Of a DNA stretch of 64,000 nucleotides, positions 14,191 through 62,816 are shown piece by piece. The DNA lies in assembly GCA_964036295.1 (NCBI GenBank), contig OZ038462.1, forward strand, positions 22,966,863 through 23,030,862, in the 5' to 3' direction. The notes beneath the pieces are model-generated. The model saw only the letters and a list, made by a program, of their open reading frames with translations, made no database searches and was not told the origin of the DNA. Source of the stretch: Plumapathes pennacea. Taxonomy: Eukaryota > Cnidaria > Anthozoa > Antipatharia > Myriopathidae. The translations under genes and the position numbers were made by a program. How positions within the stretch are numbered: the first letter of the stretch is position 1; every line of letters starts with the position of its first letter.

Positions 14191-14686
14191 ATATGCAAAT
14201 CTTTATTGTTCAGGCCGCACACCGAGATATTTACATTCGTTTGACTAACTTGTCACGCATCTCCTAAGTCACTTTTTCTGTATATTTTTACATAAAACTC
14301 TCGTAAGTTTACAAAGTGGGCTGCAACTAAATATTATAACTCTGGAGTCTACTTACTTTCTTGGAACGAAGTTGCGAGAAATTTCAAATAATCTGCCTTC
14401 TTTTATATACAATAGATTCGGCAGCGGTTGCGTCAACATTGCTTCATCAAATGTTCTTGTCTGTACATGTTTTGTGTGATTTCTCACTCCAAAGTTTGAA
14501 CTACTGGAGCAGTCAGTCGCATTAGTCTTTTAAGAATTATATCACAGGCCAGCTGTGTACATCCATAGTCACTTTAAATACTCTGAACTTAATAATATAT
14601 TTACATCTCTCGAAGAAGGCGGTTGACGGGCTGAAATCCACCCTCTGGCCTTCCTGAAGGAAGTGGCTCAATTTCTCTCGTAGTTT

Positions 14687-17600
14687 CTATGCTTTGGTGA
14701 GAGGCCATGCCCGCCTCTGTGCAGCATGATATTGATGCATGGCGTAGTTTCGGTATTGGGGAGGATACATCGAGTGTTGTCTCCTCGCAAAAAACATCGC
14801 ACGAAGATCGGGTAATTCTTGTAACGTATTCAACCTCAATTCGATTTCCAGACGGGCCAGCGCTCCTTCGTCCACTCGATCTAAGCTGTCGAAGAAGTCT
14901 TGACCCAACGGTGCAGCCTTGTCCATCACGAATTCTGGCATCTGGAAAGATAAGGGGGAATTAGTTGGTGCAAAAAGATTTCGCTATATTAGCGAGTCGG
15001 TTTTAAGACCCGTACTGCTAAAATAAAAGCCAACTTGGTTCAGTCACACACAAAAAGAGCGCTATTACATAAGCAAATAACTGATGTTCGACATCCGTGC
15101 CAACTGCCAAAAGTTCGCGAATTCAAATCTACACTCATAAAATCACAAATTTCCCAGTGCATATACCTGAAGACTTCCAAACGCAGCTTTGCTTCTTTTC
15201 CTTCGCGTCAAAATATATATATCACTGCCTCGACAAGATCAGCTCACGACCGCGACGGTTCGTAAATGGGACGAACAACCAAAATAGTGTTTTGATTACC
15301 TATGACTCGCATCGGTAACTATTTACGGTAGCCAAGCCCAGACCACAGCGATTTGATCGGTCAAACAATGGATATTGACCCAGAAGCTTTTGTGACGTTG
15401 ACGATTGACGTATGAGTCGAGAGGTTCACACAATACGATGGCGTTTGTGGAGCTGAATCTTGCGTGTATCCGACACGGAATTTTGCGAACACGGAATTTA
15501 AAGAAGAAAGAGAGAGATGAAACGATAATTCCTCCAGCTCGTACAAAAGATTGGGCCGTCTAAAACCCGAGTGTGAGTTTTTCGTGCTTGAGTTGAAACA
15601 TTCTTGAACGACGTCTCCCAGACGACGTTATGAGCAATACTTAAATAATACTTTTGTCACACCTGAATGATCCACAAAATCTGCTCTGGTAATCGCTTTT
15701 TCACTCACCGGTAGTTGCGCCGATATTTTAAAAATTTCTGGCCCTTCCCTTAAAGGGCTGCTGATGATATGTACTTGAAATAATGCCAAATATTTCTAAA
15801 TACTCTTAAAAATCTAAAGTGTACCTTAGACTGGTTCCTCAGTGCACATAATTGGGCGAAAACATGCAGTGAATTCAGGGCGAATCCTTAAAGAGAGAAA
15901 AAAAAATTTAACATGTACTCAGGACAAGTGAACAGGCTTATATAACAACTTCCGGTCAACAGCCGAAGTCACAAAGCAGTAAAAGAGCGTATAAGCGCAA
16001 AATCGCTTTCGAACGACTTTCGAACCGCAGTGTGAAACGCGCGATCCAAACTTCGATTTGCAGGTATTCCGTTCAACTTTTTAAAGGGATGACGTGATGG
16101 TTCAATCGATAAATAGCTCGTGAGCGCTAGTGTGTGACTTTCCGGCCGGAAAACGTTATGTGCGTAAACACTTCGTATGTGGTAACATTGTATTTACTTG
16201 GTTACGAATTTTATTTGCCTTTGAATTATTTCGAAGAAGCGAGAAAATGCATATGTAGCCGTGTCCGGGAGACTCTTAAATATTAGACTTTTTTCTAGCG
16301 TACTCTCCAGTCATGACACGAATACTTCACAGGACTAATTTATCCCTTCGACTAGATAAACAAAGACTCAATACCTGACGTCACTGCCCGAACGGAGGCA
16401 AAACCTCTGCATAAATTTTCGTATTTCTTTCAACAGCGAACTTTCACAGAACCCCTAGAAGCTTCCAAAAACGACACATCGGCTGGAATGGAGGTCAAAC
16501 TTTGCATAAACTTTTGCATTTCTTTCAACAGCAAATACCTAGAAGTTTACAAAAACGTGATGCCAGCTGTGTTGAACGGAAGCGTAACCTTTCCATAAGC
16601 TTTCGTATTTCTTCAACAGCGAACTTTCACAAAACAGTTCAGAAGTTTCCAAAAACGCAATCACTTTTGTGTTGGAACTACAGTTTTCTGAGTAAATGAT
16701 TGGGAGGTGAGGTCAACACTGTGTGTCATCAACCGTTTGCTCAGTCCCGTGAGAAAAAACAAAAAATGTAAATACTACGTTTACGCGATAACACTCTCAG
16801 CTACAACAGCTGGTTTTCATGAATACCACGGAAAGAAAACAAAAGTGAGCTCTTTGCTTTTTGCATCGGCACCGTGATTCGCGTAGATCGCTCCTGTATT
16901 CGCGGTTTTCCTGACACTGCGATGTGCGTGACATCTCTACCACTACAACGCGTGACAGGAAGCCAATAAAATGCAGTGTGACAGAAAGCCACTATAATGC
17001 CATGGCAGGAAGCCTGTACAATGCATATTCTTCCTTCAGCTTCTACGAACACGAGACCACAAAACTCAAGAATCTTGGAATTAGAGAAAAAGATCATTCG
17101 CGAAAACTTTCCGAGGTGAAGATATGTTTGCGGATCTAATTGGCAGGTTTAGAAGCTTTAAATTCTTCGCACAGGACCGTCCGTTTTCGGCCAGGGAAAA
17201 CCGTAGAAGAAAAGACAAAAAGTTTATGCAAACAGAAACCAGAATAACACAAGAAATGAAGCATCGATCTCGAACTGCCCTTCGAAAAAAAAAATCAGTG
17301 TGGCTTTAAATATTCCTCCCGGATGAAGAACCGCCCTTCTTCTCTCTTTTACTTCTATGTTTGCAAAAACTGAAAAAAGGTTTATAATTTTTAAAAAATG
17401 AAAAATTGATACTTTTTGAAGTTTTTAAATCAAGGCCTTTCACGTGCACTAAACACCTAGTAACGTTACACAAGACGATTTTTAACGACAATTTTTTGCG
17501 CAACTTTTCCTTTTTCTAGATTTTTTGACCCAAAATGTTAGCTAAAAAAATGTAATGCGCGAAAAATCGTCGTTAAAAATCGCCTCGTGTAACATTACCT

Positions 17601-23767: not shown

Positions 23768-24205
23768 CATTAGCATTTTAAAATGGTTAACAGGAACAAC
23801 CTTGAGTCTAGCTATCGTCAAGTTTATAAGTTTCACGTAGGTGCCATTAGGTACAACACCATTTCTTTACCGCGCAAGGATTCACCCTTCGGGTAGCAAT
23901 GTTTTGTTCTGTGTCTATTTTGCCATTGTAATTCGTATCATAGTATGGTTTAGTTTTATTGTGTTTTATTGTATAAATCTTCAAATATGATTGGAATGTA
24001 ATTTTCACTTTATATTAAAGAATTTTGCTGTTTTAATAACATTATAAGCGAGATCCTCGAGGCCGTTATATCATATCTATTATAATTGTAATGTGCAGTC
24101 ACGAAAGTTAAGTGAAAGTTTGATTAAAATATCTTCTGTCTCTGTTTCTGTTTTTGACCCTGGTTTTAGATTTCATCTTTAGGAAACACTATTAAACATC
24201 TCAGA

Positions 24206-32467: not shown

Positions 32468-32514
32468 AGAGGTCCACTCGAAGTGGGCAGATACTACTCT
32501 GATACGTTAGACAA

Positions 32515-35208
32515 ATGTCGTCAGCTCGACTTTTCTCACCTCGTGTATCAATATGGGCCGTTTGGGTACTGTTGTTATTGTTACGGAAGGCAGCGTCAGG
32601 AAGCGGAGAGAATGCGTCGTTCACCCGGCAGCTTCGCAAGCCGGGCAACTTTACGATCGGAGGCTTGTTTCCCATTCATGTTAGAAGTTGCCAGGACGAA
32701 AGTTTCAGGACGTACCTAATGGCGCTGAGCGAAGCAATGGTGTTCGCTGTTGAAGAAATCAACAAAAGCCCTTCTCTTTTGCCCAATGTTACTCTCGGCT
32801 ACGAAATTCACGATACCTGCCTCGTCACACGGAAGGCAATGCAGTCCGCTCTTCGGTTTGTCAACCTGAATAAATTCGCAGTCGCCGAAGCGGACGCAGC
32901 AAAAGCTTGTGGCGGTGTTTTCGCGAATGGAGAACCCGTATCCCCGATTTCGGCGGTAATTGGGACGGGGAATTCGGGATCGTCCATTCTCGTATCGAAC
33001 CTCCTAAACGTTGAGAGGATACCTCTCATCAGCTACGCCGCTACGAGCGATGAATTGAGCAGCAGTGCTTACCCGACATTCTTGAGGACCGTTCCGCCGG
33101 ACCGTTTTCAGTCCAGAGTCATGGCTGAGATAGCTCGTTATTTCAACTGGACTTACGTCGCGGCTGTGGGGGTCGATAACGCCTACGGCCAGTCGGGTAT
33201 CGAGGAGTTTAGCAAAAGCTCTGCCGCCTTGGGCATCTGTCTCGCTTACCGGAACTACTTTCCACCCTTGACATCGGACGAAAACAGCCAGAAGAAAATC
33301 AAGCTAATAATCTCGGATTTGAAGGCAAATCCCAAGGTGCAAGTGATTATTTTGTACTCGACACAAGAAGCAGCCGTTAACATCCTCGAGGAGGCACGTC
33401 GACAAGGCCTCCAAGGCAAGACGTGGATTGCGAGCGAAGCTTGGGGGACATCGAACAAAATCCTCACACCCGAGTTACTTCCAGTTGTGAAGGGGGTGTT
33501 GGGCATTGTCTTCCCAAATTTTGAGGTGCAGAGTTTCAAGAGGCATCTCTTGGCCAAAAGATCGAACTACAGACCAGCGAGCTGGTGGCAGCTCTTCTGG
33601 GAGAGTCAATTTGATTGTGAATTTCAACGTGGATTTAATTCTTCCAAGGAACTTTGCGGCGATAACCTCACGATTTCTGAGGATCTCTATTCCAAAAATC
33701 TTCACGATAGGAAATCTGCTTTCGTCATCGACGCTGTGTACGCCGTAGCACATGCGTTGGACGCCGTTTTACGCTGTAATGAGCGCAACCATAAAAACTG
33801 CCCGAACACGTATCCTTTTGTTGACACACAGGATTTACTAGGCTATTTGAAGAAAGTCAACTTTTCCCAGTTTAAGGAAACCCGACTGGCTTTTGATGAA
33901 AACGGTGACCCTGCTGCGTCATCCTACAGCATTGTAAATCTGCAACCAGTCAACGGAAACGTTGGAATTGTAAACGTTGGAACTTGGATGCAAGATAGGT
34001 CGCCTTCCCTCCAGCTCAACAGCAGTCTGCTAGTTTGGAACAGTGGAGAAAACGTTCCCCGCTCCATCTGCGAAGAACAGTGTCAGCCAGGGTACTGGCA
34101 AACCCAAGAACGGTCGTGTTGCTGGGAATGCATTCAGTGTCCGGAAGACACGATATCAGAAACCCCAGGCGCTCCGAACTGTACGAAATGCAAAGGAAAT
34201 TCCATCTCAAACCCAACCAGAACGCAATGTGTTCTCGTGCCCATCAAAAGAATCGGCTACACCCACCCCCTGGGGGTGTTGTTTCTGTGTCTCTCAGTCA
34301 TTGGAGTGGCAGTAACCGGATGGTTCTCTTATGTGTTCTACCAACACAACAACACTCCGATGGTGAAAGCCTCTAACCGTGAGCTGAGTTACATGCTACT
34401 GTTCTGTATCGCCATGTGTTATGCTACGCCCGTGTTGTATTTGGCTGAGCCCTCTGTTGGAGTCTGCCCGACGCATCAAGCCTGGTTCTACCTGTTTTAC
34501 ACCGCCTGTGTCGCTATTCTGGGCTCTAAAACCAACCGGATCGTTCACCTGTTTGAAGTACGCGTGCCCCGTTCCGCGCTAACCAGCCATAGCTGGGCCA
34601 GAAAGCATCGCCACGTTTTGTTCGTTGCGTGTGTCGCAGCCGTTGATTTGTTGGTCATCTCAACCTGGGTTATCACAGATCCTCCCCTGCCAACTATAGA
34701 CAAAGGCATGCGCTCAGAGTACTACAAACTATGCAAACTAACAACCGGCGTAGCGGGCGATGTATGTCAGTATCTACTCATGGGCTTGCTTATTTTCATC
34801 TCGATTTTCAGTTGTTATTTCGCCTACAGAGCTCGTAAACTACCTCATAACTTCAACGAGGCCAAGTTTATCGCTTTTTCGTTTTATATTCTGGTCTTAT
34901 CGTGGGTGACATTTTATCCAGTGTACTTGAACATCCAAGGCTTGTACACAGTGGCAGTTTCCTGTGCCGCTACGATCATCGCCGCTTCTGGACTTCTGGT
35001 TTGTATTTTTGTGCCCAAAATCTACATAATCCTCCGTCACCCCGAGAAAAATACAATGAACTACATGAAGGCGCAGATTACCGACCACACTTTCCGTAAA
35101 AGCGTCGCAGGGACAAGGGATCGAAATTCGTCCAATCTCCAAAACTCGAACCCGAATTCCGCAAACGACTCTCCAACCCCAGGCCAAAACCGCACGACCC
35201 AACTATAG
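32515..35208 (+). CDS. Intronless class C GPCR, mGluR/CaSR-like (receptor 1)
   Basis: Plasma-membrane receptor with the full class C layout in one 897-residue exon. Residues 1-28 are a signal peptide. A Venus flytrap domain covers about 45-505 (GGLFPIH, AMVFAVEEINKS, RTVPPDRFQSRVMAEIARYFNWTYV). A Cys-rich NCD3G domain follows at about 519-575 (CQPGYWQTQERSCCWECIQC). Seven transmembrane helices run from about 583 to 845, including RKLPHNFNEAKFIAF, the class C TM5/TM6 signature, and end at PKIYIILRHPEKNT. A Ser/Asn-rich tail of about 50 residues follows. By alignment from memory with mGluR1, the hydroxyl pair binding the amino-acid backbone (GSS, ATS) and the Lys before FVIDAVYAVAHAL are kept, while the Arg before EAM is not. 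A polyadenylation signal is at 35462-35467. The ligand is unknown; an amino acid is plausible. Confidence 0.95.
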   Translation: MSSARLFSPRVSIWAVWVLLLLLRKAASGSGENASFTRQLRKPGNFTIGGLFPIHVRSCQDESFRTYLMALSEAMVFAVEEINKSPSLLPNVTLGYEIHDTCLVTRKAMQSALRFVNLNKFAVAEADAAKACGGVFANGEPVSPISAVIGTGNSGSSILVSNLLNVERIPLISYAATSDELSSSAYPTFLRTVPPDRFQSRVMAEIARYFNWTYVAAVGVDNAYGQSGIEEFSKSSAALGICLAYRNYFPPLTSDENSQKKIKLIISDLKANPKVQVIILYSTQEAAVNILEEARRQGLQGKTWIASEAWGTSNKILTPELLPVVKGVLGIVFPNFEVQSFKRHLLAKRSNYRPASWWQLFWESQFDCEFQRGFNSSKELCGDNLTISEDLYSKNLHDRKSAFVIDAVYAVAHALDAVLRCNERNHKNCPNTYPFVDTQDLLGYLKKVNFSQFKETRLAFDENGDPAASSYSIVNLQPVNGNVGIVNVGTWMQDRSPSLQLNSSLLVWNSGENVPRSICEEQCQPGYWQTQERSCCWECIQCPEDTISETPGAPNCTKCKGNSISNPTRTQCVLVPIKRIGYTHPLGVLFLCLSVIGVAVTGWFSYVFYQHNNTPMVKASNRELSYMLLFCIAMCYATPVLYLAEPSVGVCPTHQAWFYLFYTACVAILGSKTNRIVHLFEVRVPRSALTSHSWARKHRHVLFVACVAAVDLLVISTWVITDPPLPTIDKGMRSEYYKLCKLTTGVAGDVCQYLLMGLLIFISIFSCYFAYRARKLPHNFNEAKFIAFSFYILVLSWVTFYPVYLNIQGLYTVAVSCAATIIAASGLLVCIFVPKIYIILRHPEKNTMNYMKAQITDHTFRKSVAGTRDRNSSNLQNSNPNSANDSPTPGQNRTTQL

Positions 35209-38737: not shown

Positions 38738-40155
38738 ATGAAGTTTTGCACAGTTACTCTTGTGTGACGTCACCGCGCGTTGGAAGTTAAAACAGTTGGT
38801 GAGGGGTGGGTGGGTAATGGGTGGGAAGAGGGCGGGATTTGGATCCGGATTTGGCTGACTTCCACATGACCGGCTCAGCGGACTCGTGACTAATCTACAA
38901 GGGTTGTTTTGTTGAAAAACCGTCGTGTTTTCTGGCTTGCTTTCCGACTGTCCAATCCTAACCCATACCCTCCCCCCTTGTGCCTCACGAGCCCGCTCAC
39001 CACCAGATGAGATCGAACAAGTCTTTTTTTTCCTAAAAACTTTACGCAATGTTTGGTCGCGAGCTATAAAGTAAATATTTTCCATGTCATAGAGACAAGA
39101 GGGGCAAGGGAAACAAATGTGGTAAAGTAAGGATTTTAAGCAGGAATACTGTTCCGCTGTCTACTAGTTGAGCGACGCAAGCTAAATTGAGCGACAAACT
39201 GATTTGATTTTATTGTTTCTCAGACATCACTCGCCTATTGTTATGCAACGACAAAACTTTAGTTAATTCCTGAATAACAGTGGTTTTCTATTTAAAGCGT
39301 GACCTATTGTTCCAAACAATTTTGTGCTTTCAAAACTTCCGATGCACCAGAGTTTTTTTACGCTGTGCAGCCAGGCCCCAAACTGGGCAGCTCTGTTGAA
39401 TGCATCTTTTCACCGTGCAATCTGTGATTACAGTTTGAAACCCAATATTTAAAAGCTTTATGTTGCATTCTCGGGTAACGGAACTATTTTTATTATTTGA
39501 AATTCCTTTGCTGATTAACAGCGTTTTTCACTCGCATTTTGTAATATGTACATTTTGACAAAGACAGACAAAGTAGTTTTTTCTGTCCTATAATTTTAAG
39601 CTATATGATTCAGACATACTCGTAGTCCTAGTAAACGTTTTTCAGCCTTATAACTCGTCATTTCCTCTGACATCTTTTAGTCAATTACCTAATCCGTATG
39701 CTTGGGTGATCATTGATAATTCTTTGCTAATTTCCCACCTGAACATGGTGTATACAAAAGGCTTACGGTCTTAACACGCTGTTGTTTAAATAGCTTATTG
39801 TCCTGGTTTAATATGATTTTATCAGAGTTGTGGTATACTGTTTGAAGAGTACCACCAAAGTTCCTGATTTGTGGGGTTGAGTATTAGTCCGCACTAGTCA
39901 GTAAACAGTGCCCTGAGGGGATCTGATTCCATTCCACAACATGCGTACAATCACGACTTCTTTTTAATTGCTGATCCACAAGCCGAAGCAGCACGTACGA
40001 AATTGCAGCCCAAAAAAACAGGTTTAACAAGTTCAAACGAATGCTGCAGTTCCCATTTTATAACCATCTTTCCAGATATTTCATTGTTTTTCATAAATGT
40101 CATTGGAGAGGTGATGAAAGCTGACGGCGGGAACACAGACCTCCCACTTATTTAC
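38738..40155. other. Convergent spacer between the 38.3-kb frame and the CITED-like gene
   Basis: No supported coding frame. A TTTATT at 39489-39494 (AATAAA on the minus strand) is a candidate end for the CITED-like transcript. Several frames on the minus strand at 38675-39085 mirror GC-rich sequence and show no motif. Confidence 0.45.
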
Positions 40156-40362
40156 TCATCGCTCCGGTTGCTCATCCACATCTGCATTAATTTGCAAATC
40201 TTTCAGTTCTGGTAACTCGTGGTGCATATCTAAGCCAAACTCGCGGATCAATCTTGTCAAAGTCTCATCATCCACACTGTCAAAATGTTCTAAAATCTCG
40301 TGTTCCACCGAGGGTTCTTTGAATGGGGGTGTTTCCTTGTTCCACGTCACACTTTCGCACAT
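40156..40362 (-). CDS. CITED-like p300/CBP-interacting protein, single exon
   Basis: A 68-residue protein dominated by the CITED C-terminal motif: FDSVDDETLTRLIREFGLD followed by ELPEL. This matches the human CITED2 pattern D.IDEEVL..LV.EMGLD...ELPEL at nearly every defining position, including GLD and LPEL, the segment that docks on the TAZ1 domain of p300/CBP. Flanks are short and acidic, with no His/Gly-rich N-terminal region as in vertebrate CITEDs. An in-frame TGA lies 17 codons upstream of the ATG, so the frame is complete if unspliced. A TATA-like box is at 40605-40615, giving a leader near 215 nt. It is clearly related to the 14.7-kb gene but less altered. By family knowledge it would be a nuclear transcriptional cofactor; regulation of HIF here is inference. 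Confidence 0.8.
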   Translation of the reverse strand: MCESVTWNKETPPFKEPSVEHEILEHFDSVDDETLTRLIREFGLDMHHELPELKDLQINADVDEQPER

Positions 40363-40604
40363 GCTGCTCTGTGTTTGGCCGAAGCTTCTCTTGGGTGACT
40401 CAATAGCGCGGCGTCAACTGCTCCTCTTCAATAATAGAATGCGCACTTATTCTTCAGTTTTCTAACTCCTGTGCGTAGTTCTTTGGGACAACAGAGCAGG
40501 CTGACCTTTGGTGTGTTGTCCGACTCAGCACGTAGCAACTCGTGTAAAATGGACTGTGTGTTCCCGGGCAGTACGAATCAATGTTGTTCCAAGCTGAGTC
40601 TCCG

Positions 40605-40615
40605 CCTTAAATATC
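40605..40615 (-). promoter_or_regulatory. TATA-like box for the 40.2-kb CITED-like gene
   Basis: GATATTTAAGG on the minus strand. It shares the TATTTAA core with the box proposed for the other CITED-like gene at 18414-18423. Confidence 0.4.
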
Positions 40616-40619
40616 TACC

Positions 40620-43600
40620 CTCGAGGTATTGACTAGGCGCAAGTTCCAAAGTCGACTCGCGCGTCGTGCCCGAGAACAAACAGAACAACAATGTTTATGA
40701 TTTTAGTCATCTGAGGCCTTCGAGTGTTGACTACGACGAATCTATTTTGAGAATGACTCGGTCAGTTGTGTGTCGTAGATTACGTAAGTGGTAATAACAG
40801 ACATGTATGTCAACAGGGGACACGTAATTGCCCAGTCATGCGGTAATTTTATCGAGAGAGGGGGGAGGGACGCATAGTGTGGTTCCTTCTATGCCGTTGT
40901 TTATCAACTGGAAGACGACACAAAGTAACTTAATAAATACTGGGTAAAATCTGAACATATCAAAAAAATTTTAATCGAGGATTGCGAAACCTTGCACTCA
41001 TTCACCCACCCCACCCCTGTCCTTTGTGTTTAGTATTTGTCGAATATTGTAGCAATGCGCCCGGGCGTGAAGCCGCGTGCTTTCGGAACAGCGGGGAGGT
41101 ATTTCCGCGTGTTGAGTTGTATTTTGATCTTTTGTAGATTTTCTATAGTATAGTCTCCGCATCTTGGACCAAAGGCAAGCAGAGTGGAGCCGCGTTAACA
41201 CTATTTTGCAACTGCTTGTCAAGAGTCCATACAAGAAACGGCAGCACACAAAGCATTGATTTTTAATCCAACATGAGTACTGTCACAAGTTGGTCAGTCA
41301 TTCTTAGGTCAGGTTTAATCCTGTCACTTGGACATTGACATCAGTGCTGTGGAGTTGGTGTCTCACGGACCTATATCAGCAGACTCACTTGTCCCCGGGC
41401 CCCGGGATTCCAGTGACCTTGTTCCCTGGGGGTTTGTTCTCGATCTTTCAAAATTTTGTTTTGTAGACGTCACTCAGAATAACAAGAACAGCTTAATTTA
41501 AACACTGTGTGGTCTAAAACATTCCTGTTGCAAAACGGACAATTGGACACTAAACCCGAAATAGCCCGCCATGTTGCTAATACAGATTCTCGTTTCAGTC
41601 GATTCAGGATTGACACGCACTGTTGTGTTGACCAATGTTACCCCGGAGACGCAAAAATTTACATTACTGCGATATACAGAACTCCGCATTTTCAAGATGG
41701 TTACCATGGCGACCTTTGGCCTCTTTTTAGATGTAGCGGAAAAAACTCATCAAATAGAAAGGAGGAGGGGGAGGGGAGGGTGGGGTGGAACCCTGTCACC
41801 TGATCAATTCCAGCTATTGAAGTGTCACTCACTCACTCACTCACTCTTGATTGAAAATGAAAATTCTGCACCAGACAGTGATGGTAGTACCGGTATGGCA
41901 TTTTCTCAATGGCAATTCATCTTCTTCTAAATGCATACAAAACTGTTATCTAAAAAGAGATGAAGTAGTTTACCTTTTCCTCTCTGAATCTGTCGACCAC
42001 ATCTTGAGTCAATGCCCACTGTTCCGTTAAAAACTTGCAAACCTAGAAGCCGTTCGTTACGGAAAGGCCATCAGCTCAAACTGTACTTTCAAAATTGTTA
42101 TACTTGAGTGTAGTTTATTACAGACACCCTAATCAGCAGCTTAATTAACTAATATTAGACAACTGAACACAAAGTGGCTCTCATAAATGCCACATACCTT
42201 TTCAATCGTCCCGTCGGAGTTCACACTTCCAGACGCCATATTTTTGGACCATGTGGTAGACTTGAGCCCGCGAGCAAACGTAAGTAGCAACGTAAATGGC
42301 AACGTAAGTGGCAACATAAGTGGCAATAAGTTAGAAAAGTGGAGCTTCAATGGATGTCCCTTCCAGGGCTCCGTAATATCAGAAGACTGATCATTATTGT
42401 CATCCGACGCAATCTGAAAGAATCTCCTGGGCCCGGTTGTTCAGAGCCCGATTAGGACAATCCTGGATGAGTCTGAACATTTTTTTTTTATGAAACCTAA
42501 AAATTAAAAGCACTATTTTCTCTGTACTTGTCGGAGCCAGAACTAGTTATTTATTTTGTCTTTGATCTGAATCGATCTAATTACCGCTTGTTGGACAAGA
42601 GATCGAGAAGAACAATGCGCCGTTAGCCCTGTGTCAGCTCGATCAATCTTAGAACAACCAGGGCTTGGAATTACTGGAATCTGGGCCATGTTAGAGCAAG
42701 ATGAGCTAGTCCCAGCTTAGGCCCAATTTTTGTCGCCGTCTTTAAGCCCAGAAAATGTCGCTCACAACACAATTTCCTTGATAAGTTTTGAGCTTAAACA
42801 AATTTTGTAGTTGGTCTTTTCTAAAAAAAATCTGCAGTTTATTCGCGCTAAGAGGTCGAAAAAGTTAATTTTGAACAACTTGGGGCACTGGATTGACCAA
42901 GAGCGGATTCCCGAAGTGCACGCTTCCAGGAGTATAGTCATGGAACCTACACATTTCACGAGACTGACCGCTTATTCGAGGATTTACTCAGTTGTGAACA
43001 TACCTTTATTATCTCATTATCCCAGACATTGGCTTCTTTTACTGAAAAGTAGGTCTCTTTGCCTTTGATAGACCTCAGTGTGTTCATTCAGAGCCACTCG
43101 TGCGACACAGAGAGCGCATAGTAATTATTCAAAATGGCGCAGATTTTACACATTGCCCGTGCACCCAAAAAATCTCGATCCTTCGCGCTAGCCGAAAGCA
43201 CGTGGCACGTATCCCATCGACCCCGTGGAACCCACACCAGTTGAGATTTGGGTTGCGTTCTCCTTCATCGAGCGCAATTACCATAAGGAGTTCAAGTGAA
43301 AGAAATTGTATTGTTCTTGCCCAGCTCAGTAAAGCGATTTTTTGATTGTTTTCCATTTCGTAATTATATTTTGAAGGTCAAACAATACTTGCGCTGAATA
43401 TTTGACTCTGTTTGATTGAACTTCTTTCGGCTCTTCTGATCAACCAGTGATCAACACACTAGTCCAACAAACGTACTCGTAAGAGCTTTCATCTGAGTCG
43501 GTAACAACTTCAGGTTTCATTCGGCACTTCAGAAGTGGCGGGAAGTTCTCTAGATTGAGTCTAACTTCCTAGTTACTTTCCGTCGTGCCTCTAAAACGAA

Positions 43601-43776: not shown

Positions 43777-43881
43777 ATGACAATTGCCTTGATTGTCACA
43801 ATTCACAAAGCGTTATCGAAGTTTGAGACGAGGTCCAGCTGTAGCGTTTTTTGCGATACTGCTTCCACCGTTGCCGAATAA
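43777..43881 (+). other. 34-codon upstream ORF ending one base before the receptor 2 start
   Basis: ATG at 43777 opens a frame of 34 codons that stops with TAA at 43879-43881. A single T separates it from the receptor ATG at 43883. Such an arrangement would restrict receptor translation to leaky scanning or very short-range reinitiation. Confidence 0.6.
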
Positions 43882-43882
43882 T

Positions 43883-46507
43883 ATGCCTGTAACAAACTAC
43901 AAACACTCAAATTTTACGACCACTGCCTTCCTTTTGTTACTAGTCATCCGTAACGTCCAAGCATCCTTCTTCAAAGGAAATTACAGCCTGTACAGACACG
44001 GCGACGTTGTTTTGACAGGCTTATTGAACGTTCGTCAAGCAGTACCTGACAACGACTGTGGAGAACTGAGGCCTGGGGGTGTCGCTCAAGTGGCAGCATT
44101 TCTCTTCGCTATCGACGAGATCAACAAAGACACTTTTCTCTTGCCAAATGTTACGCTTGGCTACGATATCTATGACGCGTGCGGCAGCACCGACACGGCG
44201 AACGAGCTAGCGTTCTCTTTCGCGCAGAGAAACGGTATGCTGGCGGAATCGAAATGTTCCCAGAAAGAAAGTGGACCAAATGTAACCAAACCTGTATCGG
44301 CGGTTATAACAGGAATCGGTTCCGACAGCACTCTGTTCGTGGCGAATATGCTGCAGGTGAGGTCGATTCCTTTGATCAGCGCAGATGCAACGAGTGAGGA
44401 ATTGGATAATCTGCGCTTCAAAACGTTCTTTCGCACCATTCCATCAGACGCACATCAGGCGAGGGCCATTGCTGATCTGATCGAGTACTTCAGGTGGACG
44501 TATGTGGGAATCATCGCAGGAGACGAGTCGTATGGATTGTACGGCGCGATAGCTCTGGAGGACGAGGCCCACCTGCGGCAAACCTTTTGTATCGCCTTCT
44601 TGGAGTCGGTGTCGCATCACAGACGTAACAAACTCAAACACGTGGTAAAATCCGTTAAAAGCAACGTCAAAGTCCAAGTCATTGTGCTCTGGGTTAACTT
44701 TCCGACTGCGACTGAGTTTTTGGACGAAGCGAATAAAGAAAAATTATTTGGGCGGACTTGGATTACTCCTGATGGTTGGTCCCAAGCCACGACGTTGTTC
44801 TCTAAAAAGCGCGCTCAAGTTGTCCGCGGTTTCCTCGGAATCAACTTTCGTAGTTGTGACATCCCTCAATTGAGACATTATGTCAATCAAAGTCTCATTT
44901 TGCCCAACGGGCCGTTGAAAAACAGCGCATGGTGGAAGGAGTATTGGAGCAATTTAAAACGAAATTGCAGTGAGGGAACACGGTGTGGAAATGGTTCTTC
45001 ATATTCGCATCTAACCGACGAACTGTACCAACAGATGCACAGCCCTTATGTTGGTTTTTTGACTGATGCTATCCATGCTGCTGCCCGAGCGATCGATGCT
45101 TTATGTCGCCATGACAACATCCTGCAGTGTGCGGATGTTAAGGGGGCCGATATACTCGACTATCTAAAACAAGTTTCTTTTACAGGAATCACAGGGAATG
45201 TCAAGTTAAACGGCAAGTCTCCTGCGAAGTACGACATCCTCAATCTTCAACAATGGCCGAATGGAACGCTGGTACTCAAAACCGTGGGGTCGTGGGACGG
45301 ATCTAAACACGAGAGACTGGTGATTCGCGAAGAGATACTGATTTGGCCTAATGAGAGCAGAGTAGCACCTAAGTCGGCTTGCAGCTTAACTTGCCCGCCA
45401 GGAACTATGCAAACAACGGCAGTTTCTTGTTGCTGGGATTGCTTGCCGTGTACTGGAAGACAAGTGAGTGAGAAACCAGGCTCCTTGAACTGCACGTGGT
45501 GCGCACGTGATCAAAAACCCAACAAACAGCACACAGCGTGCGAGGAGCTGCCTCACGTCGACCTGAAGTGGGATGATGGGATAGCCATAGCTATGGCTGC
45601 GTGCGCAGCTCTCGGGGTTTGCCTCGTGACGTTTGTTGTCTTCACATATATTAGATTTCGCGCCACACCTGTCGTCAAATCCTCTAACCCAGACATCAGT
45701 TACTGTCTAATGATTGGAATCACGCTGGGCTTCACTTCCGCCGTTATATCACTTCTTCCTCCAAGTACGATCACGTGTTATGCGGCCAGTGCGCTTTACT
45801 CTCTCTACCTGAACACGTGCGTGTCCGTACTGTTCCTGAAAACCAACCGCCTACTGCACATTTTTAAGCTGAGTCTCTTGTCCTCCGCTTTCACGCGCTG
45901 GTGCTGCGACAGAAAAAACCAGTTCATTCTGCTTGCGATGCTCAACCTTGCTCCGCTCTCGCTGCTTGTCGTTTGGATCGTACTCGATCCTCCACAAGCC
46001 ATCGTCTCCATCGTTCCGATGCAGTACCAGTACCTTGAATGCAGGATGGTTCCCAGAGGCATTGCTGGGAATATCTCATTGTTCGTGTATATCTATATAT
46101 TGATAATATCGATCGTGTGCACCTTCTACGCATTCAAGGCGAGGAAATTACCCGGCAACTTTAACGAAGCGAAGTTTATCACGTTCGCCATGTGTATACA
46201 GCTTATGTGCGTCCTGAGTACTGTTACCGTATATGGTAGTCTCAGCGACGCTTATCTCGTGGAGTTTGACTGCAGCATTAAACTTCTCAGCGCTTTTGGA
46301 TTCCTGCTTTGCTTGTTCGGTCCAAAGATTTACGTAATTTATCGCCATCCAGAGAAAAACACGACAGAGTACGTGAAGTCTGTGGTTGCCAATCACACCA
46401 TGCGAACCTCCACCGTCTCGGGTATTAACGTCGGTCCGTCCGACCGCGACAGGTCGGTTTCAGGTGTCAGTGCCATCAGCGCAAAAACAGCTTGTACATC
46501 GCTTTAA
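43883..46507 (+). CDS. Intronless class C GPCR (receptor 2), unit A
   Basis: 874 residues in one exon. The frame is open 30 codons further upstream but has no ATG there; ATG 43883 begins a good signal peptide (TTTAFLLLLVIRNVQA). It has a flytrap domain (LFAIDEINKD, FFRTIPSDAHQARAIADLIEYFRWTYVG), the Cys-rich domain near 499-545 (CPPGTMQTTAVSCCWDCLPC), seven helices from about 565, the RKLPGNFNEAKFITF signature and PKIYVIYRHPEKNT. It is a paralogue of receptor 1. Against mGluR1 the backbone-binding hydroxyls are partly kept (ST, ATS), but the Lys that would contact a distal carboxylate is Tyr (SPYVGFLTDAI), so glutamate itself is unlikely. A poly-A signal is at 46834-46839. A decayed partial copy lies at 52926-54679. 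Confidence 0.95.
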   Translation: MPVTNYKHSNFTTTAFLLLLVIRNVQASFFKGNYSLYRHGDVVLTGLLNVRQAVPDNDCGELRPGGVAQVAAFLFAIDEINKDTFLLPNVTLGYDIYDACGSTDTANELAFSFAQRNGMLAESKCSQKESGPNVTKPVSAVITGIGSDSTLFVANMLQVRSIPLISADATSEELDNLRFKTFFRTIPSDAHQARAIADLIEYFRWTYVGIIAGDESYGLYGAIALEDEAHLRQTFCIAFLESVSHHRRNKLKHVVKSVKSNVKVQVIVLWVNFPTATEFLDEANKEKLFGRTWITPDGWSQATTLFSKKRAQVVRGFLGINFRSCDIPQLRHYVNQSLILPNGPLKNSAWWKEYWSNLKRNCSEGTRCGNGSSYSHLTDELYQQMHSPYVGFLTDAIHAAARAIDALCRHDNILQCADVKGADILDYLKQVSFTGITGNVKLNGKSPAKYDILNLQQWPNGTLVLKTVGSWDGSKHERLVIREEILIWPNESRVAPKSACSLTCPPGTMQTTAVSCCWDCLPCTGRQVSEKPGSLNCTWCARDQKPNKQHTACEELPHVDLKWDDGIAIAMAACAALGVCLVTFVVFTYIRFRATPVVKSSNPDISYCLMIGITLGFTSAVISLLPPSTITCYAASALYSLYLNTCVSVLFLKTNRLLHIFKLSLLSSAFTRWCCDRKNQFILLAMLNLAPLSLLVVWIVLDPPQAIVSIVPMQYQYLECRMVPRGIAGNISLFVYIYILIISIVCTFYAFKARKLPGNFNEAKFITFAMCIQLMCVLSTVTVYGSLSDAYLVEFDCSIKLLSAFGFLLCLFGPKIYVIYRHPEKNTTEYVKSVVANHTMRTSTVSGINVGPSDRDRSVSGVSAISAKTACTSL

Positions 46508-47340
46508 CTGTTTTACTTGTTGAGCTTGTAATACTAAACTCTTCCAGCTTTCAGAAGTACAGTCAACTGAACCTGTATTAAGCGGCCCTGAGTTAAGCGG
46601 ACACACTGTATAAGCGGGAGGACAGTTGTCTAAAGTACCGAAAATCTACTCCCCAGTAAGATACATACTATACAAACTGTGCCTGACACTTCACAATTCC
46701 CCAAGGGTACTGAAGTAAGAAAATTTTCCGCAGCAATATATCCTCCCAGAGAAAAATTAGTAAATTTTGTTTTAATGATGATATCGGGTTAACAGGAACT
46801 TTTTAACATCGAACATAATAGCAAATAATAGCAAATAAAGCGTGCTCTCATCGGCTCCGAGGAGACAGGCACAACAGTCATCTGTATAAGCGGACAGTCG
46901 TCTAACGGCCCCCAGTAAAATATTGCAAACTCTACCTGACACTTCCAATTCCCCAAGCGCAGTGGGGTTGACATAACCTGAGTATCAGGCTTTCTTTTGG
47001 GATATACTTAGGTTAGGGTTGGCATAGCCTCCTGCGCAGACGCTATGAGCTCGTCACTCAAAGATTCCTCCCCCACTAACACGAAATCTTTTTGATTGAC
47101 AAGCTCCTAGTGTCTGCGCAGGAGGCTAGGGCTGGCACGGGGACAGACGGCCGAACCAGAGGAAAGAAAGACGCCAGAAAGACAGACAAGTGTGAAAGAG
47201 AGTTACTTAAAAATCAAAATAAAAGAGAAAAGAGAGAAAAGGAAAAGGAATAAAGAAAAGAAGTTTCAGTAATTCTGAACATTTTGAGCATTGCGCAATG
47301 TTGCGTGAAGCTTACTTTTATGGGCATAACCGCTGACCCC
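46508..47340. other. Receptor 2 3' flank; MITE; eIF1A upstream region
   Basis: GTATTAAGCGG..TTAAGCGGACAC words at 46575-46620 recur at 54950-55030 in unit B. A foldback element spans 47025-47128, with TAGCCTCCTGCGCAGAC at its left end and the complement at its right. From about 47186 the sequence aligns with the region before the second eIF1A gene. Confidence 0.65.
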
Positions 47341-47432: not shown

Positions 47433-50400
47433 ATGCCAAAAAACAAAGGTAACTAGAAATACGATAATGGCAGATACCTCCCCGCTTTGCCATTGATTGG
47501 ACGTTTCCTTTGGCCTACTGCTCAACAAGAGCAGCCTCTGTTTACCGAAATTTTTACGCAATCTTTTCTTCGAAGTCTAGTGCTACACGCAAAGGAAGGA
47601 GAAAAAGAATGGTGTGTGTTTTACTTTTGCGTTGAAAGGAATTGATTGCGTGACGCCGTACGTATTTCTTACAGTCGGCACGCCAATTTAAGGTATCACC
47701 ACTTTTGCGCGCATCGAACATTAGCGCATAAAAATCGCGCGTCACCCCAACAAAGTATACATTTTCTGTTAGGTTATGAGTTGAGGAACACACTGCACAC
47801 AAAGTTTTTGCTTTTAAACTCACTATTCTAGAATGCTGGACAGTCAATTCCGATTATACCTTGTTTGACTCATTTGACTTATTCTCCTTCGGAATTTACC
47901 GAACGATGACGAACTTGCCTTTGAAATGGTGCTGACATGATAGCCCACTTAAGTGTGTCTCAGATTTCCGAAAGACCGCTCCATTTCTTGTCCGGATATT
48001 ATCTCATCTGATGTCGTTGCGCAAAACATAAATAAGTAAGTAAATTTCTAAAAGAAAAAAAAAAAAAAAAAAAAAAAAGAAAGAAACTGAGACACATTTT
48101 TGTAGATCAAACACACATTTATGCTTCTGTCAAATTTCAGAGAAATTCAATCCGAGGGAGATTAACTTAAAAAACCAGGCGCTATTACGCTTATTTTTTG
48201 TTTCGAGAAAAACGCCGCTAAAGTTCTGTGTTCCCACAGAGCCCCCTGGCGTTTCGAAACAAAAGAGGTGTTGCTGTGAGCCGGTGGCAATGACAGCTAC
48301 CGTGAGGTTGAAACTTGATCCAGCGTTGCGCGCGGTATTTGCTGCGCAGCGAGCGAAGCAGCAGTTCATATTTCTTATGGAGGAAAAATCTCGACACGCT
48401 TGACTGCGTCCGTTTGCAATTGGACCACACTGCATCACGCGCTTGCAACCAAAATGCTTTGTGACACTTGACCTCACAACAACACGTTTTGCGCGAGTTC
48501 TTCCTTTCCATATGGATGACTTGTCATGTGCTTGAATACAGTAGGCCACGGTTGTTCAATACGAAACTATACCCAATAGATAAGTTGCTATCCAGCATAA
48601 GCAATGTCCTCCCAACTACAGTTATGCGAGATTACACCAAAACCAGCGCAGCAATCACAATCTTTAGATATCCTGGTTTATTGTTTCACGGCATTCGCTC
48701 TGTGGAAAACTCTTTGTCACTTTATCGGCTAAACAAAAAAATTGAACAAAAATATGGGTCGAACAAGGGGTTCACGGATTTCGCGCAAGAAAAAAGCAAA
48801 TAACGTCGGCGAAAACGTGCCAGCAGCCACGAGGGTTAATCCTTGTGGAGTCTGCCATGGGTCCTCGACCTGTTCCTCGCCTGATGAACGACTGGTTTCC
48901 ATCGATAGAGACATTAGATCCCCGGCTTCACCGATCATCTTTCTGGAACTAGCACTTTTCCGCTCATTGATCTTTTCTTCAGTTTTCGTCTTCTGTGCTC
49001 GACCACTCTTGATACCACGAGCCCATGTCACTACGCTTCATTACAGCCCTCTTCGACGGGCTCATTGCTTTTCGTCGGTTTTTCCTTCTTTTCCTCGCAA
49101 CGAATGCATTTGTGTTTCGCTTCGGCATTTTACCTCTGTCAACACACAACGCACGTGGTGTTCACTGATGCATCACGGGACTGTTGTCGTGACGATACAA
49201 CAAACTGTCAACACCGGATATTGGTATAATTAAACATGGCGGACGCACGAATGTAAATATTTCCCCGTAACTTCTCGACGAAAACGTAGTTTTCGACAGA
49301 ATCTTCGAGATTGGAAAGAGTGGAACGAATCACTTTAGATTTTTTGAAAAAACTAAAAACTCATTTTGCTAACTAAAAACTAAAAACTCACATTTGGGGG
49401 GGGGGGGGGGGGGGGGGGGGGTGATACCTTAACTCATGCAGTCTGCCGGGCACGTTCTCATACATTTAATGCTTGAGTTGTGAAGTTGGTCGGCCGCCGT
49501 GGTACGGGAGGAAAAGGATCACTGATTTCCAATTTTGAATTCATAGGCAGTACAATTGAATAGGCTTTCTATGCCATTATTTTTTTACTCTGGACTGCAT
49601 GCACTGGACTCAGGCATGTATATTTATAGCTCGAATTGTTTTGCGCGTGAACCCGCTCAAAACAGCATGATTTCTCCCAGAATCAAAGCAACGCTTGAAC
49701 GGTTTATTTTAAATTATACACGGGCTTCAAATCTAGTCATACTTTAAAGGGCTTGTGAACGATTCTCGCTGCAATCACCGCGTGTCAGATTACAGTATTT
49801 GTCACAGTTTTAGATCTTGAAAAAATAAAACATCTGACTAAATCATTAAAGACTCCAAGTTCCGATTGCTCTGAGCGAATATGCTAGCCGAAACTGACGA
49901 CAGAAGCGTATTAGGACAATACTTCGAGGGAAAATGATCAGCATGCAGATTTGTTTTGTTTCAAGTTTTCCAGTCTTCAAATTTATTTTCGTGAACGCAT
50001 TTACGTACAATTGTTGCTTCTTTCAAATCTTTTTTTCTTCCGAGTGTCAGTAAAACTATTGGCGAGGACGCTAATCAATATTTACGTCATTGCTTAGGTA
50101 CCTGGCCTTATGTCGTACAATGACTGACGAACATTAAATTTCGAGATGGCGACCCGCTTGGAGTCTCCAAATAAGGCGATACTACTGCATTAACGTCGTG
50201 ATTATTACCCTCGCTAACGCTCGGGGAAAATGCCTTTTGGCGTTGTGAAGACCGAAATGATTATCGTTTATCCTAACAGGAAAGGGAGGAAGGAACAGAA
50301 AAACGAAAAAGCCTGGAAATGAATCCGAGAAACGTGATCTCGTGTTCAAGGAAGACGGGCAAGGTAAAGAATAGTATGTCTTGTTACACTGACTCCTAGA

Positions 50401-51877
50401 TGAGCTGCGATTTACAGTTCTTGGAATAAATGTACAATCAGCATTATTAAGATTTGAAGAAAGGTGAAATTGTATTTCTCTTGTTATTTCAAAACTCGTC
50501 ATAGTATATTCTGTGAAAAGTGACTTGACTTTAATTTCTTATGCTAGAATATGCCCAAGTGACAAAGATGTTGGGTGACGGCCGTCTAGAGGCTATGTGC
50601 TTTGATGGAGCGAAGCGACTGTGTCGTATTCGTGGTAAACTCAGGGAGAAGGTAAGTTGAAAATACGTTATATTTTATATTATAAAATTTCGTCGATCAG
50701 TCTCAAATCGAACGTCCTCAGGCCTCTGAGATCATTTTATCCCTCTCACTTAAAATCTGTGGTTTACTTTGACTTATGAAGCGGCAATTTTAAGAACTTC
50801 CTGTATCCGATTTGTAGTTCTGGATGAAAAAATAAATAAAAAACAAAAAACATCAAAATTGCCATTTTTCATCACAATGAGGTACAGTATAAAGAGCATT
50901 AAAAACACAACATAATGTATATGCAACATTTCAGTGTATACAGCAATGAAATGGTAATTTGTGGGTAGTAGAAAGAGTAAGAAAGGGTTTTTCGGCTTTT
51001 ATTTCCACCTGTGCATGTGTGAAAATTTTGTCCACTGATTTAACTAAACATAGGTACATTAACAAAGGCTTAACTAGACACCATAAATTGTTGCGATTAG
51101 CATGTATTATATATTTTTAAGGAATATCTTGTCAGCTCTGACGACCCAATGGTATGACATTAAGCTTTACATAGTCCAAGTTCTGTCGGAATTTATCAAG
51201 ATCACCCTGGGCTTTGACTACCTCCTGTTATCGAGGGATGAGCCTGTGTGAGTGGGGCATTTTACTTTGAAAGGACCATGTGGTCGGAAATTTGACACCA
51301 AAGTGATACATTTGTACAATATATCAGGTGTGGATCAATGCTGGTGACATCATTCTCTTGGGTTTACGAGACTATCAAGACAGCAAGGCAGACGTGATAT
51401 TGCGTTACAATCCTGATGAGGCCAGACGTCTGAAAGCATATGGAGAGTTGCCAAAATCTGGTAAATTAAGAGTATTATTATACAAATTGTGCCCTGAACT
51501 TGTGTCATTTTTCTAGCAACTGATATTTTTGTACTTCTCATTCTTTGCAGCCAAAATCAATGACACAGTAACTTTTGGCCCCAATGAGGATGAGGAAGAG
51601 ATCATTACTTTTGATGATGTGGGGCAGGATGACCCAGATGAGGCAGATATTGACATAGTGAGTACTGTAAATCATTAAAATCTCATAACTTTCACAATAC
51701 AAATTCTCACAAGCATTCAAGAAGGAAATTTATGTGATGAGAATATTGTGGTATTTTTGACCCCCAGTCTGTTACTCATACTTTAAACCACTTTGCAAGC
51801 ATTGAATAGTAAGGGTGTGTAAATTATGGATTAGCAGACATGAGAAAATTCCTTCATGTTTCTCTTTGTAGATTTGA
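47433..51877 (+). CDS. EIF1AX: Translation initiation factor eIF1A, divergent paralogue (unit A)
   Basis: eIF1A binds the 40S A-site and promotes scanning and start selection. Six exons keep frame: 47433-47448, 50280-50363, 50548-50651, 51328-51460, 51551-51657 and 51872-51877, giving 149 residues. The OB-fold core ([36 protein letters not shown]) and acidic tail are intact. It departs from both human eIF1A and the second copy at otherwise fixed places. The basic N-terminal tail reads [15 protein letters not shown], where the other copy has [15 protein letters not shown]. The core has GDGRLE for [16 protein letters not shown] for [16 protein letters not shown] for QDNKAD and EARRLK for EARSLK. 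One codon is inserted in the tail (EEIITF). The first donor is GTAACT, weaker than GTAAGA in the other copy. Intron 1 has grown from 64 bp to 2.8 kb. It may be decaying or specialised. Confidence 0.85.
47460..50228. other. 2.8-kb insertion inside eIF1A-A intron 1
   Basis: The other copy has only about 64 bp here. The added DNA contains A24 (48055-48078), G26 (49396-49421) and several open frames (48130-48550 minus, 48742-49233 plus, 48729-49031 minus) without known motifs. It rejoins the homologous intron at ATGCCTTTTGGCGTTGTGAA near 50230. Confidence 0.75.
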
Positions 51878-52267
51878 AATGGACCAAATGTAACAGAACT
51901 GTCACTAGAACCCAGTCATGGAAACTTGGAGAGCTTTGTGAAACTTCAGCAAGGCTTGAATTCACAACGGTTTTGCATTATTCATGTTTTGTGCACATGT
52001 TTAGCTATTTGTCATAGTTTACCTTTCCTTTTATTTACAGTGCAAAAAGGTTTGGTTAGTATGACACATGTACTTTTCTCTCTAAGGTGTAGTTATTCTG
52101 TATAACATAAGATTGTAAGTGAAAGGATAGATACTGATTGTTGTCAAGAATATGTTGACTGGCATTTCAAGAATCCTTTGCCAGAAGGTCCAATTCTTGA
52201 AATGTCAAGCAAAGCATTCTTTGCAGCAGTCAGCATATCCCAACACCACTGTTACAGTTGTAGTGTA
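51878..52267 (+). other. eIF1A-A 3' UTR homologous to unit B
   Basis: Starts ATTTGAAATGGACCAAAT and aligns with 58202-58565 with few changes. Homology stops near 52267, where LTR-like sequence begins. Confidence 0.7.
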
Positions 52268-52797: not shown

Positions 52798-52925
52798 GCC
52801 CAAATTAATTTGGATTCGAACGTACGTTGGAAGTATCATATACTCCAGGTCTCTAAGAAAATTAATAAAGGTGTGGGAGTACTTACCAAAATTCGTCATT
52901 TCACATATATTCATATTTTAACCCA
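52798..52925 (+). pseudogene. LINE reverse-transcriptase fragment
   Basis: About 43 codons open from 52798 read LDSNVRWKYHILQVSKKINK then GVGVLTKIRHF. This is the conserved segment near the C-terminal end of CR1/Jockey-type reverse transcriptases (pattern LD.NL.WK.HI..ISKKI.K..G.L.KIR). It is truncated at both sides and abuts the breakpoint of the receptor pseudogene. Confidence 0.7.
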
Positions 52926-54679
52926 ACTTATTTGGGCGGACTTGGATTGCTACTGATGGCTGGTCCCAAGCCACGACGTTGTTCTCTAAAAAGCGCGCTC
53001 AAATTGTCCGCGGATTCCTCGAAATCAACTTTCGCAGTTGTGACATCCTTCCATTTAGACATTATGTCAATCAAAAGTCTCATTTTGTCCAACGGGCCGT
53101 TGAAAAGCAGCGCATGGCGGAAGGAGTATTGGCCGGAGCAATTTAAAACGAAATTGCAGTGAGGGAATACGGTGTGGAAATGGTTCTTCATATTCGCATC
53201 TCACCGACGAACTGTACCAACAGATGCACAGCCCTTATGTTGGTTTTTTGACTGATGCTATCCATGCTGCTGCCCGAGCGATTGATGCTTTATGTCGCCA
53301 TGACAACATCCTGCAGTGTGCGGATGTTAAGGGGGCCGATATACTCGACTATCTAAAACAAGTTTCTTTTACAGGAATCACAGGGAATGTCAAGTTAAAC
53401 AGCAAGTCTCCTGCGAAGTACGACATCCTCAATCTTCAACAATGGCCGAATGGAACGCTGGTACTCAAAACCGTGGGGTTGTGGGACGGAGCTAAACACG
53501 AGAGACTGGTGATTCGCGAAGAGATGCTGATTTGGCCTAATGAGAGCAGAGTAGCACCTAAGTCGGCTTGCAGCTTAACTTGCCCGCCAGGAACTATGCA
53601 AACAACGGCAGGTTGCTGGGATTGTTTGTCCTGTACTAGAAGACAAGTGAGTGAGAAACCAGGCTCCTTGAACTACACGTGGTGCGCACGTGATCAAAAA
53701 CCCAACAAACAGCACACAGCGTGCGAGGAGCTGCCTCACGTCGACCTGAAGTGGGATGATGGGATAGCCATAGCTATGGCTGCGTGCGCAGCTCTCGGGG
53801 TTTGCCTCGTGACGTTCGTTGTCTTCACATATATTAGATTTCGCGCCACACCTGTCGTCAAATCCTCTAACCCAGACATCAGTTACTGTCTGATGATTGG
53901 AATCACGCTGGGCTTCACTTCCGCCGTTATATCACTTCTTCCTCCAAGTACGATCACGTGTTATGTGGCCAGTGCGCTTTACTCTCTCTACCTGAACACG
54001 TGCGTGTCCGTACTGTTCCTGAAAACCAACCGCCTACTGCACATATTTAAGCTGATTGTCTTGTCCTCCGCTTTCACGCGCTGGTGCTGCGACAGAAAAA
54101 AAACAGTTCATTCTGCTTGCGATGCTCAACCTTGCTCCGCTCTCGCTGCTTGTCGTTTGGATCGTACTCGATTCTCCACAAGCCATCGTCTCCATCGTTC
54201 CGATGCAGTACCAGTACCTTGAATGCAGGATGGTTCCCAGAGGCATTGCTGGGAATATCTCATTGTTCGTGTATATCTATATATTGATAATATCGATAGT
54301 GTGCACCTTCTACGCATTCAAGGCGAGGAAATTACCCGGCAACTTTAACGAAGCGAAGTTTATCACGTTCGCTATGTGTATACAGCTTATGTGCGTCCTG
54401 AGTACTGTTACCGTATATGGTAGTCTCAGCGACGCTCATCTCGTGGAGTTTGACTGCAGCATTAAACTTCTCAGCGCTTTTGGATTCCTGCTTTGCTTGT
54501 TCGGTCCAAAGATTTACGTAATTTATCGCCACCCAGAGAAAAACACGTCAGAAGTCTATGGTGGCCAATCACACTATGCAAACCGCCACCGTCTCGGGGA
54601 TTAACGTCGGTCCGTCCGACCGCGACGGGTCGGTTTCGGGTGTCAATGCAATCAGCGCAAAATCAGATTGTACCTCGCT
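52926..54679 (+). pseudogene. Truncated, frameshifted copy of class C GPCR receptor 2 (unit B)
   Basis: Nearly identical to 44737-46500 of receptor 2 but begins around its codon 288, so the signal peptide and first half of the flytrap domain are missing. Lesions seen by eye against receptor 2: +1 base near 53075 in the CAAAAGTCTC run, +4 bases (CCGG) near 53130, a 6-base loss near 53607 that removes part of the SCCW motif, +1 base in the A-run near 54100 inside the helix bundle, and a net 8-base loss near 54548 at the start of the tail. The stretch 53224-54095 stays open and could look like a gene. It is a DNA-level duplicate of an already intronless gene, so absence of introns does not imply retroposition. 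Confidence 0.92.
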
Positions 54680-54683
54680 TTAA

Positions 54684-54880
54684 ACCTTTCACTTCCAAGT
54701 TCAAAAATGCAGATTCTCCCAACCTTTTAAGAGGAAATTGCATGAGTGGTGTAGTGAGAATTGATAGTTTAATCAACTATCATCTGAGCAAGGTACCAAA
54801 AGCCAAGTTCTCCTTTATATACTTGTGCTGCCGAAACTGAAGGAGAAAATTGAACTTGATCACTCTTGGGAGTGAAAGGG
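54684..54880. mobile_element. 197-bp inverted-repeat element with TTAA target duplication
   Basis: Ends ACCTTTCACTTCCAAG and CTTGGGAGTGAAAGGG are inverted. TTAA stands on both sides (54680-54683 and 54881-54884). Unit A has the empty site, CGCTTTAACTGTTTTACT at about 46499. The body contains GTAGTGAGAATTGATAGTTT. TTAA duplication is the hallmark of piggyBac-type transposition. Confidence 0.85.
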
Positions 54881-62497: not shown

Positions 62498-62816
62498 ATT
62501 TCCATTGGAAATGCAGGAACGAAATAATGGCCTATTAATATCAGCAAGTAGTTAATACAATGCACATGATTGTACATTGTTTGTCCTTTTGTGAACAGCG
62601 TGAACCTCCTAATTCAATATTTTGGTCAGTGGCCATTAGTGGTACGCAAGCGCACGACGTTGTTTTGGTCGGTCAATTCAATATGGCGGCCTGTGCTGCT
62701 TCAATCCAAAAAACGTTTTGTGGGCGAAAGAAGCACAGTTTTTAAATATTCCTGACTGCCAGTAGCACGCAAAGCGTCAGTCTTAATCTGCTGTTGAGAA
62801 TAATTTGATTATCAGA
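62498..62816. promoter_or_regulatory. Bidirectional promoter between MANEA and TRAPPC10
   Basis: Only 319 bp separate the two start codons. No TATA box is evident. CAATATGGCGGCC near 62678-62691 matches the YY1-type AANATGGCGGC motif common in TATA-less housekeeping promoters. Confidence 0.6.

Follow-up and report, generated by a model that had tools for sequence, protein, structure and literature searches.

The CITED-like locus and its surroundings

The window, that is the whole stretch of 64,000 nucleotides that was analysed, carries on its minus strand two short open reading frames, W40 and W14, whose translations resemble the segment with which vertebrate CITED proteins bind TAZ1, a domain of CBP/p300 (Table 1). 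Elsewhere in the window a class C GPCR (ANF_receptor, NCD3G and 7tm_3) occupies one long frame at 43793-46504 (+), and part of that locus (44741-46518, +) recurs at 52925-54694 (+) as a partial copy of 95.7% identity, split over several frames; a further class C GPCR, likewise intact, is present at 32503-35205. Two more stretches, at 50229-52258 and 56381-58584, resemble one another (87-94%). An ADP-ribosylglycohydrolase is present in at least three pieces at 24170-26871 (+), a glycosyl hydrolase of family 99 forms a long open frame at 61139-62551 (minus), and at 3152-3497 there is an imperfect palindrome in which 346 bp match their own reverse complement with 75% identity. Rfam gave no matches over the window at gathering scores.

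Table 1. Features of the two CITED-like loci, in window coordinates
Feature	Position	Strand	Remarks
W40, CITED-like coding frame	40156..40362	minus	68 aa + stop; reads MCESVTWNKETPPFKEPSVEHEILEHFDSVDDETLTRLIREFGLDMHHELPELKDLQINADVDEQPER
W40, putative TAZ1-docking core	40204..40284	minus	residues 27-53, from the end of the N-tail through alphaA to LPEL
TATA-like TATTTAA upstream of W40	40607..40613	minus	putative promoter element
AATAAA downstream of W40	39489..39494	minus	candidate poly-A signal
W14, second CITED-like frame	14687..14941	minus	84 aa + stop; window ORF list, Pfam, two-sequence model
W14, putative docking core	14804..14884	minus	residues 20-46, LDRVDEGALARLEIELRLNTLQELPDL; 12/27 identical to CITED2
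Candidate intron just before W14 ATG	14942..15708	minus	donor CCG/GTGAGTG, acceptor TCTTTCCAG/ATG
TATATAA upstream of W14	15938..15944	minus	putative
AATAAA downstream of W14	14202..14207	minus	putative

An initial annotation had described W40 as a minimal, single-exon CITED protein of 68 residues, and both the frame and its place are borne out; the coding sequence, as read from the DNA, apparently lies in one exon. The reading frame stays open for a further 17 codons 5' of the ATG, until an in-frame TGA at 40414-40416, and there is no ATG between the TATTTAA element and the start codon, a property found in 8% of 213-nt segments taken from the window itself and in 2.5% of Markov sequences. Four candidate poly-A signals (two AATAAA and two ATTAAA) were found within the 1.15 kb scanned 3' of W40.

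Evidence that W40 is CITED-like

In a Pfam search against a library of 24,736 models W40 matched CITED (PF04487) with 19.9 bits and an E-value of 8.7e-4. This was the sole family listed up to an E-value of 10, with no DNA-binding domain among the matches. The profile check proposed in the initial annotation returned the expected family, but with fewer bits than the 27 of the curated cut-off, which counts against W40. The match spans only positions 160-187 of the 210 in the profile, so that the profile match shows no sign of CR1 or CR3. A search of the PDB (E<=10) gave five matches, the best four of which were CITED2 or CITED2-HIF chains (E-values of 0.003-0.08); the fifth, gramicidin S synthase (E 1.6), was taken as noise.

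The possibility of a chance resemblance was addressed by comparing the six-frame translation of the window with those of 300 first-order Markov versions of it, using a model built from two sequences, the CITED2 core from the PDB and the distant locus L002, and containing neither W40 nor W14. W40 scored 30.6 bits against this model, compared with a maximum of 12.4 among the 300 Markov windows. Over the whole genome the Pfam profile picked out two places, W40 (17.5 bits, E 0.58) and L002, and the 28-residue core of human CITED2, used as a query over 290 Mb, had W40 as its single match at E<=10 (E 1.45). The latter value is weak alone; the strength of the case is that several queries agree. Codon usage was rejected as proof that W40 codes since it is neutral (per-codon rank 15 among 93 comparable ORFs of the window), and this counts against the frame. 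The observation of a CITED-like frame beyond chance is nevertheless confirmed.

The docking motif followed by LPEL that the initial annotation had recognised is present in the correct order and spacing, as Pfam, the PDB matches and the alignment all indicate. The core of W40, FDSVDDETLTRLIREFGLDMHHELPEL, aligns with human CITED2 without gaps and is identical at 14 of 27 positions; alphaA is followed by LPEL with the spacing of the human protein, so that the core of CR2 is there. The hydrophobic positions within or just past the CITED2 helix (L35, L38, I39, F42 and L44) are retained together with LPEL. In the N-tail, four positions can be aligned with CITED2 220-223 by our own count, and among them D is kept and V replaces I. 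After LPEL there is only KDLQINADVDEQPER, and W40 does not contain a complete CR2 of 48-55 residues with a hydrophobic C-terminus. An AlphaFold prediction from the single W40 sequence has a helix at residues 32-42, the position of alphaA, with a mean pLDDT of 79 at residues 31-40 and of 62.2 overall, i.e. at low confidence. From the kept hydrophobic positions, LPEL and the predicted helix, binding to TAZ1 through alphaA and LPEL would therefore be the most likely function of W40. W40 would work in the manner of CR2 of CITED. Membership of the CITED family is likely, but W40 is named a CITED-like variant because it lies below the Pfam cut-off and lacks a full CR2.

Two further frames, W14 and L002

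The initial annotation had envisaged a single minimal CITED protein, and whilst a minimal frame does exist it is not alone, being one of three related frames, two of them within the window. W14 has 14.8 bits against Pfam CITED (E 0.03), below the cut-off of 27, but in the model made from the CITED2 core and L002 it reaches 19.7 bits, above all 300 Markov windows (maximum 12.4). Genome searches with the Pfam CITED profile, W40, L002 or CITED2 did not return W14, and a genome search with W14 as the query found W14 alone. In codon usage it ranks 6 among 93 window ORFs. The AlphaFold prediction (mean pLDDT 63.6, low confidence) places a helix at residues 25-37, on alphaA, and a further one at 44-58 which includes LPDL, so that this motif would open a helix rather than being extended. 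The candidate acceptor directly 5' of the W14 ATG is of the textbook type and a donor-like GTGAGTG lies at 15708; three ATGs between TATATAA and this donor speak against the simplest gene model.

L002 is on the same chromosome as W40, 13 Mb away. Counted from its ATG it is open over 104 aa, and its codon usage is mildly positive; TATAAA lies 144 bases 5' of the ATG, and the 194 upstream bases examined contain no ATG. Pfam CITED matches it with 21.9 bits (E 2e-4, below the cut-off of 27), or with 20.7 bits (E 0.06) in the search of the whole genome, and W40 and L002 retrieve each other genome-wide with E-values of 0.4 and 0.23. When CITED2, W40, L002 and W14 are aligned, 8 of the 27 core positions are identical in all four, namely D, D, L, L and L together with the L, P and L of LPxL.

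A larger cluster of CITED-like frames was considered and rejected, as some 195 kb flanking the window on both sides (20 pieces) contained no further core, the best scores in two models being 8.2 and 6.3 bits. Comparison of the W40, W14 and L002 loci as DNA gave no match at E<=1e-3, and the self-comparison of the window, in which matches of at least 150 bp at E<=1e-10 are shown, gave none between W40 and W14. Recent duplication was rejected because of this lack of DNA similarity at E<=1e-3. A search for relatives in prokaryote contigs produced 68 stretches that fit a pattern, of which none was confirmed, and a match in a viral contig (L037, 31%, its E-value being relative solely to the candidate) was taken for chance.

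The host genome and its HIF and CBP

The initial annotation had called the genome cnidarian-like, and this is right given the mitochondrial features and the form of the HIF oxygen-dependent motif. A contig of 17,711 bases is the mitochondrial genome, with both rRNAs and two tRNAs (Met, and a second whose anticodon is TCA, taken as Trp), and its genes stay open only where TGA stands for Trp. Two parts of ND5, the 3' part identified by Pfam and the 5' part read by eye, enclose ND1 and ND3, and a LAGLIDADG frame interrupts COX1. We take this set of features as a whole to mark Hexacorallia. The second part of COX1 (L044, 4437-5217, minus) is found in two overlapping frames, and the contig may therefore hold a frameshift or sequencing error at this point. 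The GFP family was also tried as a marker of the taxon, but no member was detected at E<=0.001 in the whole hexacorallian genome; this null result is uninformative, because the genes are split into exons and none of 14 control genomes gave a match either, and the host was placed by its mitochondrial contig instead.

The last coding exon of the host HIF contains RAPFIPLPD (ODD) and the C-TAD. The form of the ODD has been given as RAPY or RAPF in cnidarians and RAPY in most protostomes, in a source which also describes sponges and ctenophores as lacking HIF (PMC5800844). In the C-TAD (L015, G000:C9:3606222) VPLV takes the place of the LPQL of human HIF. Ala replaces the Cys of DCEVNAP and the Asn is kept, EVNAP and LLQGDELLRAL being retained. 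A second C-TAD-like match (L016, 19.4 bits, below the cut-off) was dropped, as it overlaps a frame read as a retroelement integrase. The TAZ1 domain of the host CBP, encoded by two exons that were joined by eye, is identical to that of human CBP at 85 of 97 residues. The principal CBP candidate has, at a distance of 0.48 Mb, a second place with adjoining TAZ1-like and TAZ2-like zinc fingers (L009 and L007, G000:C1:37987157-37987752), which looks like a partial CBP duplicate.

Comparison with CITED2 and with HIF

Among the nearest known systems is CR2 of vertebrate CITED2 (PDB 1R8U and 1P4Q), with which W40 shares the ungapped core described above and a target, TAZ1, that is conserved in its host. 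It differs in its length (68 aa, compared with about 270 for CITED2), in having no match to CR1 or CR3 of the Pfam profile, and in the absence of a hydrophobic C-terminus past LPEL. CR2 of CITED2 has been placed at residues 215-270, in a paper according to which all vertebrates have CITED2 (PMC3474824), and another paper gives CR2 a length of 48-55 aa and describes CITED4 as lacking CR1 (PMC11032013). The single best PDB match of W40 is 7LVS, which like 7QGS is a CITED2/HIF-1alpha fusion peptide, and the alignment continues beyond LPEL, pairing DLQINADV in W40 with DCEVNAPI; these are, however, laboratory chimaeras, and the additional match covers few residues. This resemblance to HIF past LPEL may be chance and is noted but not relied on. 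The host HIF C-TAD is likewise expected to bind TAZ1, but has VPLV in place of LPQL and is not a CITED.

According to one account of CITED2 (PMC11289882), efficient displacement of HIF needs more than alphaA and LPEL. The direction of the displacement is attributed there to the hydrophobic C-terminus, whose deletion worsens the KD by about two orders of magnitude, and locking of the CITED2-bound state requires the N-tail (residues 218-223).

Alternative explanations

We consider it probable that W40, in a hexacorallian cnidarian, is a genuine though very short gene of the CITED family, the product of which tunes the use of CBP by activators via TAZ1. A first alternative is that W40 codes for an unrelated short protein in which a TAZ1-binding activation motif arose by convergence, and which would work like CITED without descent from the CITED ancestor. 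Short linear motifs easily converge, only about 27 residues are common with CITED and the remainder of W40 has no CITED match. Set against this are the helix and LPEL in the human order and spacing, ungapped, in three separate frames, and genome searches in which the CITED profile gives W40 and L002 only and the human core W40 only; convergence is accordingly regarded as distinctly unlikely. A second alternative makes W40 the final exon of a CITED gene of conventional, greater length with N-terminal exons that were not seen. The start of the W14 frame coincides with a good candidate splice acceptor, and splicing near the start may thus occur in the family formed by W40, W14 and L002. In W40 itself the in-frame stop 17 codons upstream, the absence of an upstream ATG as far as the TATA-like box and the failure to find an acceptor at 40363-40900 (one pattern, at least six pyrimidines followed by YAG) all point the other way, making this very unlikely. 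That W40 is a chance or decayed open frame without a protein product would fit its neutral codon usage and its mere 68 codons, but is highly improbable in view of a score far beyond the 300 Markov windows, an intact core, a second frame in the same window that likewise exceeds all of them, and the ATG-free stretch from the TATA-like box to the start.

W40, TAZ1 and HIF

If W40 is a CITED-family gene as preferred here, its product would be mostly disordered when free, and the DDETLTRLIREF helix and LPEL would wrap onto TAZ1 of CBP/p300, W40 folding in the process as CITED2 does. Bound in this way it could tune which activators, HIF among them, use CBP, and it would probably act as a weak, reversible competitor of HIF. 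Expression of W40, its binding to TAZ1 and a resulting change in HIF activity are all presumed steps of this scheme. Control of oxygen or stress signalling through competition with HIF, as suggested in the initial annotation, is a putative role. Since W40 has no hydrophobic C-terminus, strong competition with HIF is the less safe claim; with the segment of CITED2 that drives HIF displacement absent, W40 may plausibly compete more weakly or not at all.

Weak, reversible competition is our first choice. A bolder reading is that a W40-type protein is the partner of HIF on TAZ1 and not its competitor, the two half-ligands sitting together on one TAZ1, with the competitive switch having evolved later on the bilaterian or vertebrate side. 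Considered in its favour were the end of W40 shortly past LPEL, without the HIF-displacing C-terminus, and the VPLV of the host HIF in place of LPQL. In vertebrates such co-occupancy is a passing intermediate, which is imitated by the laboratory CITED2-HIF fusions. This reading is thought unlikely.

Implications

The overall interpretation given in the initial annotation is partly supported. The genome, which is of the sea anemone and stony coral type, apparently codes for several very short, related proteins in which not much is retained beyond the CBP/p300-docking part of CITED, and this suggests that the docking part is much older than the vertebrates. The short form itself may be either ancestral or reduced. 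A search of the open-access literature for cnidarian CITED proteins led to no paper that was recognised as such among the matches listed, which does not imply absence from print; the novelty of CITED-like genes in cnidarians is provisional, and cnidarian protein databases may already annotate them.

A survey of 2007 listed CITED2 among genes of chordate origin (PMC1868935); if the present assignment is true, the origin of the CITED core moves to before the cnidarian-bilaterian split. It would also provide a natural minimal TAZ1 ligand for a much-studied switch between disordered proteins, in an animal that has HIF and a little-changed TAZ1 beside it. With three short members that share little but the core, the question of which parts of CITED are ancestral, and of the ancestry of its competition with HIF, would become testable.
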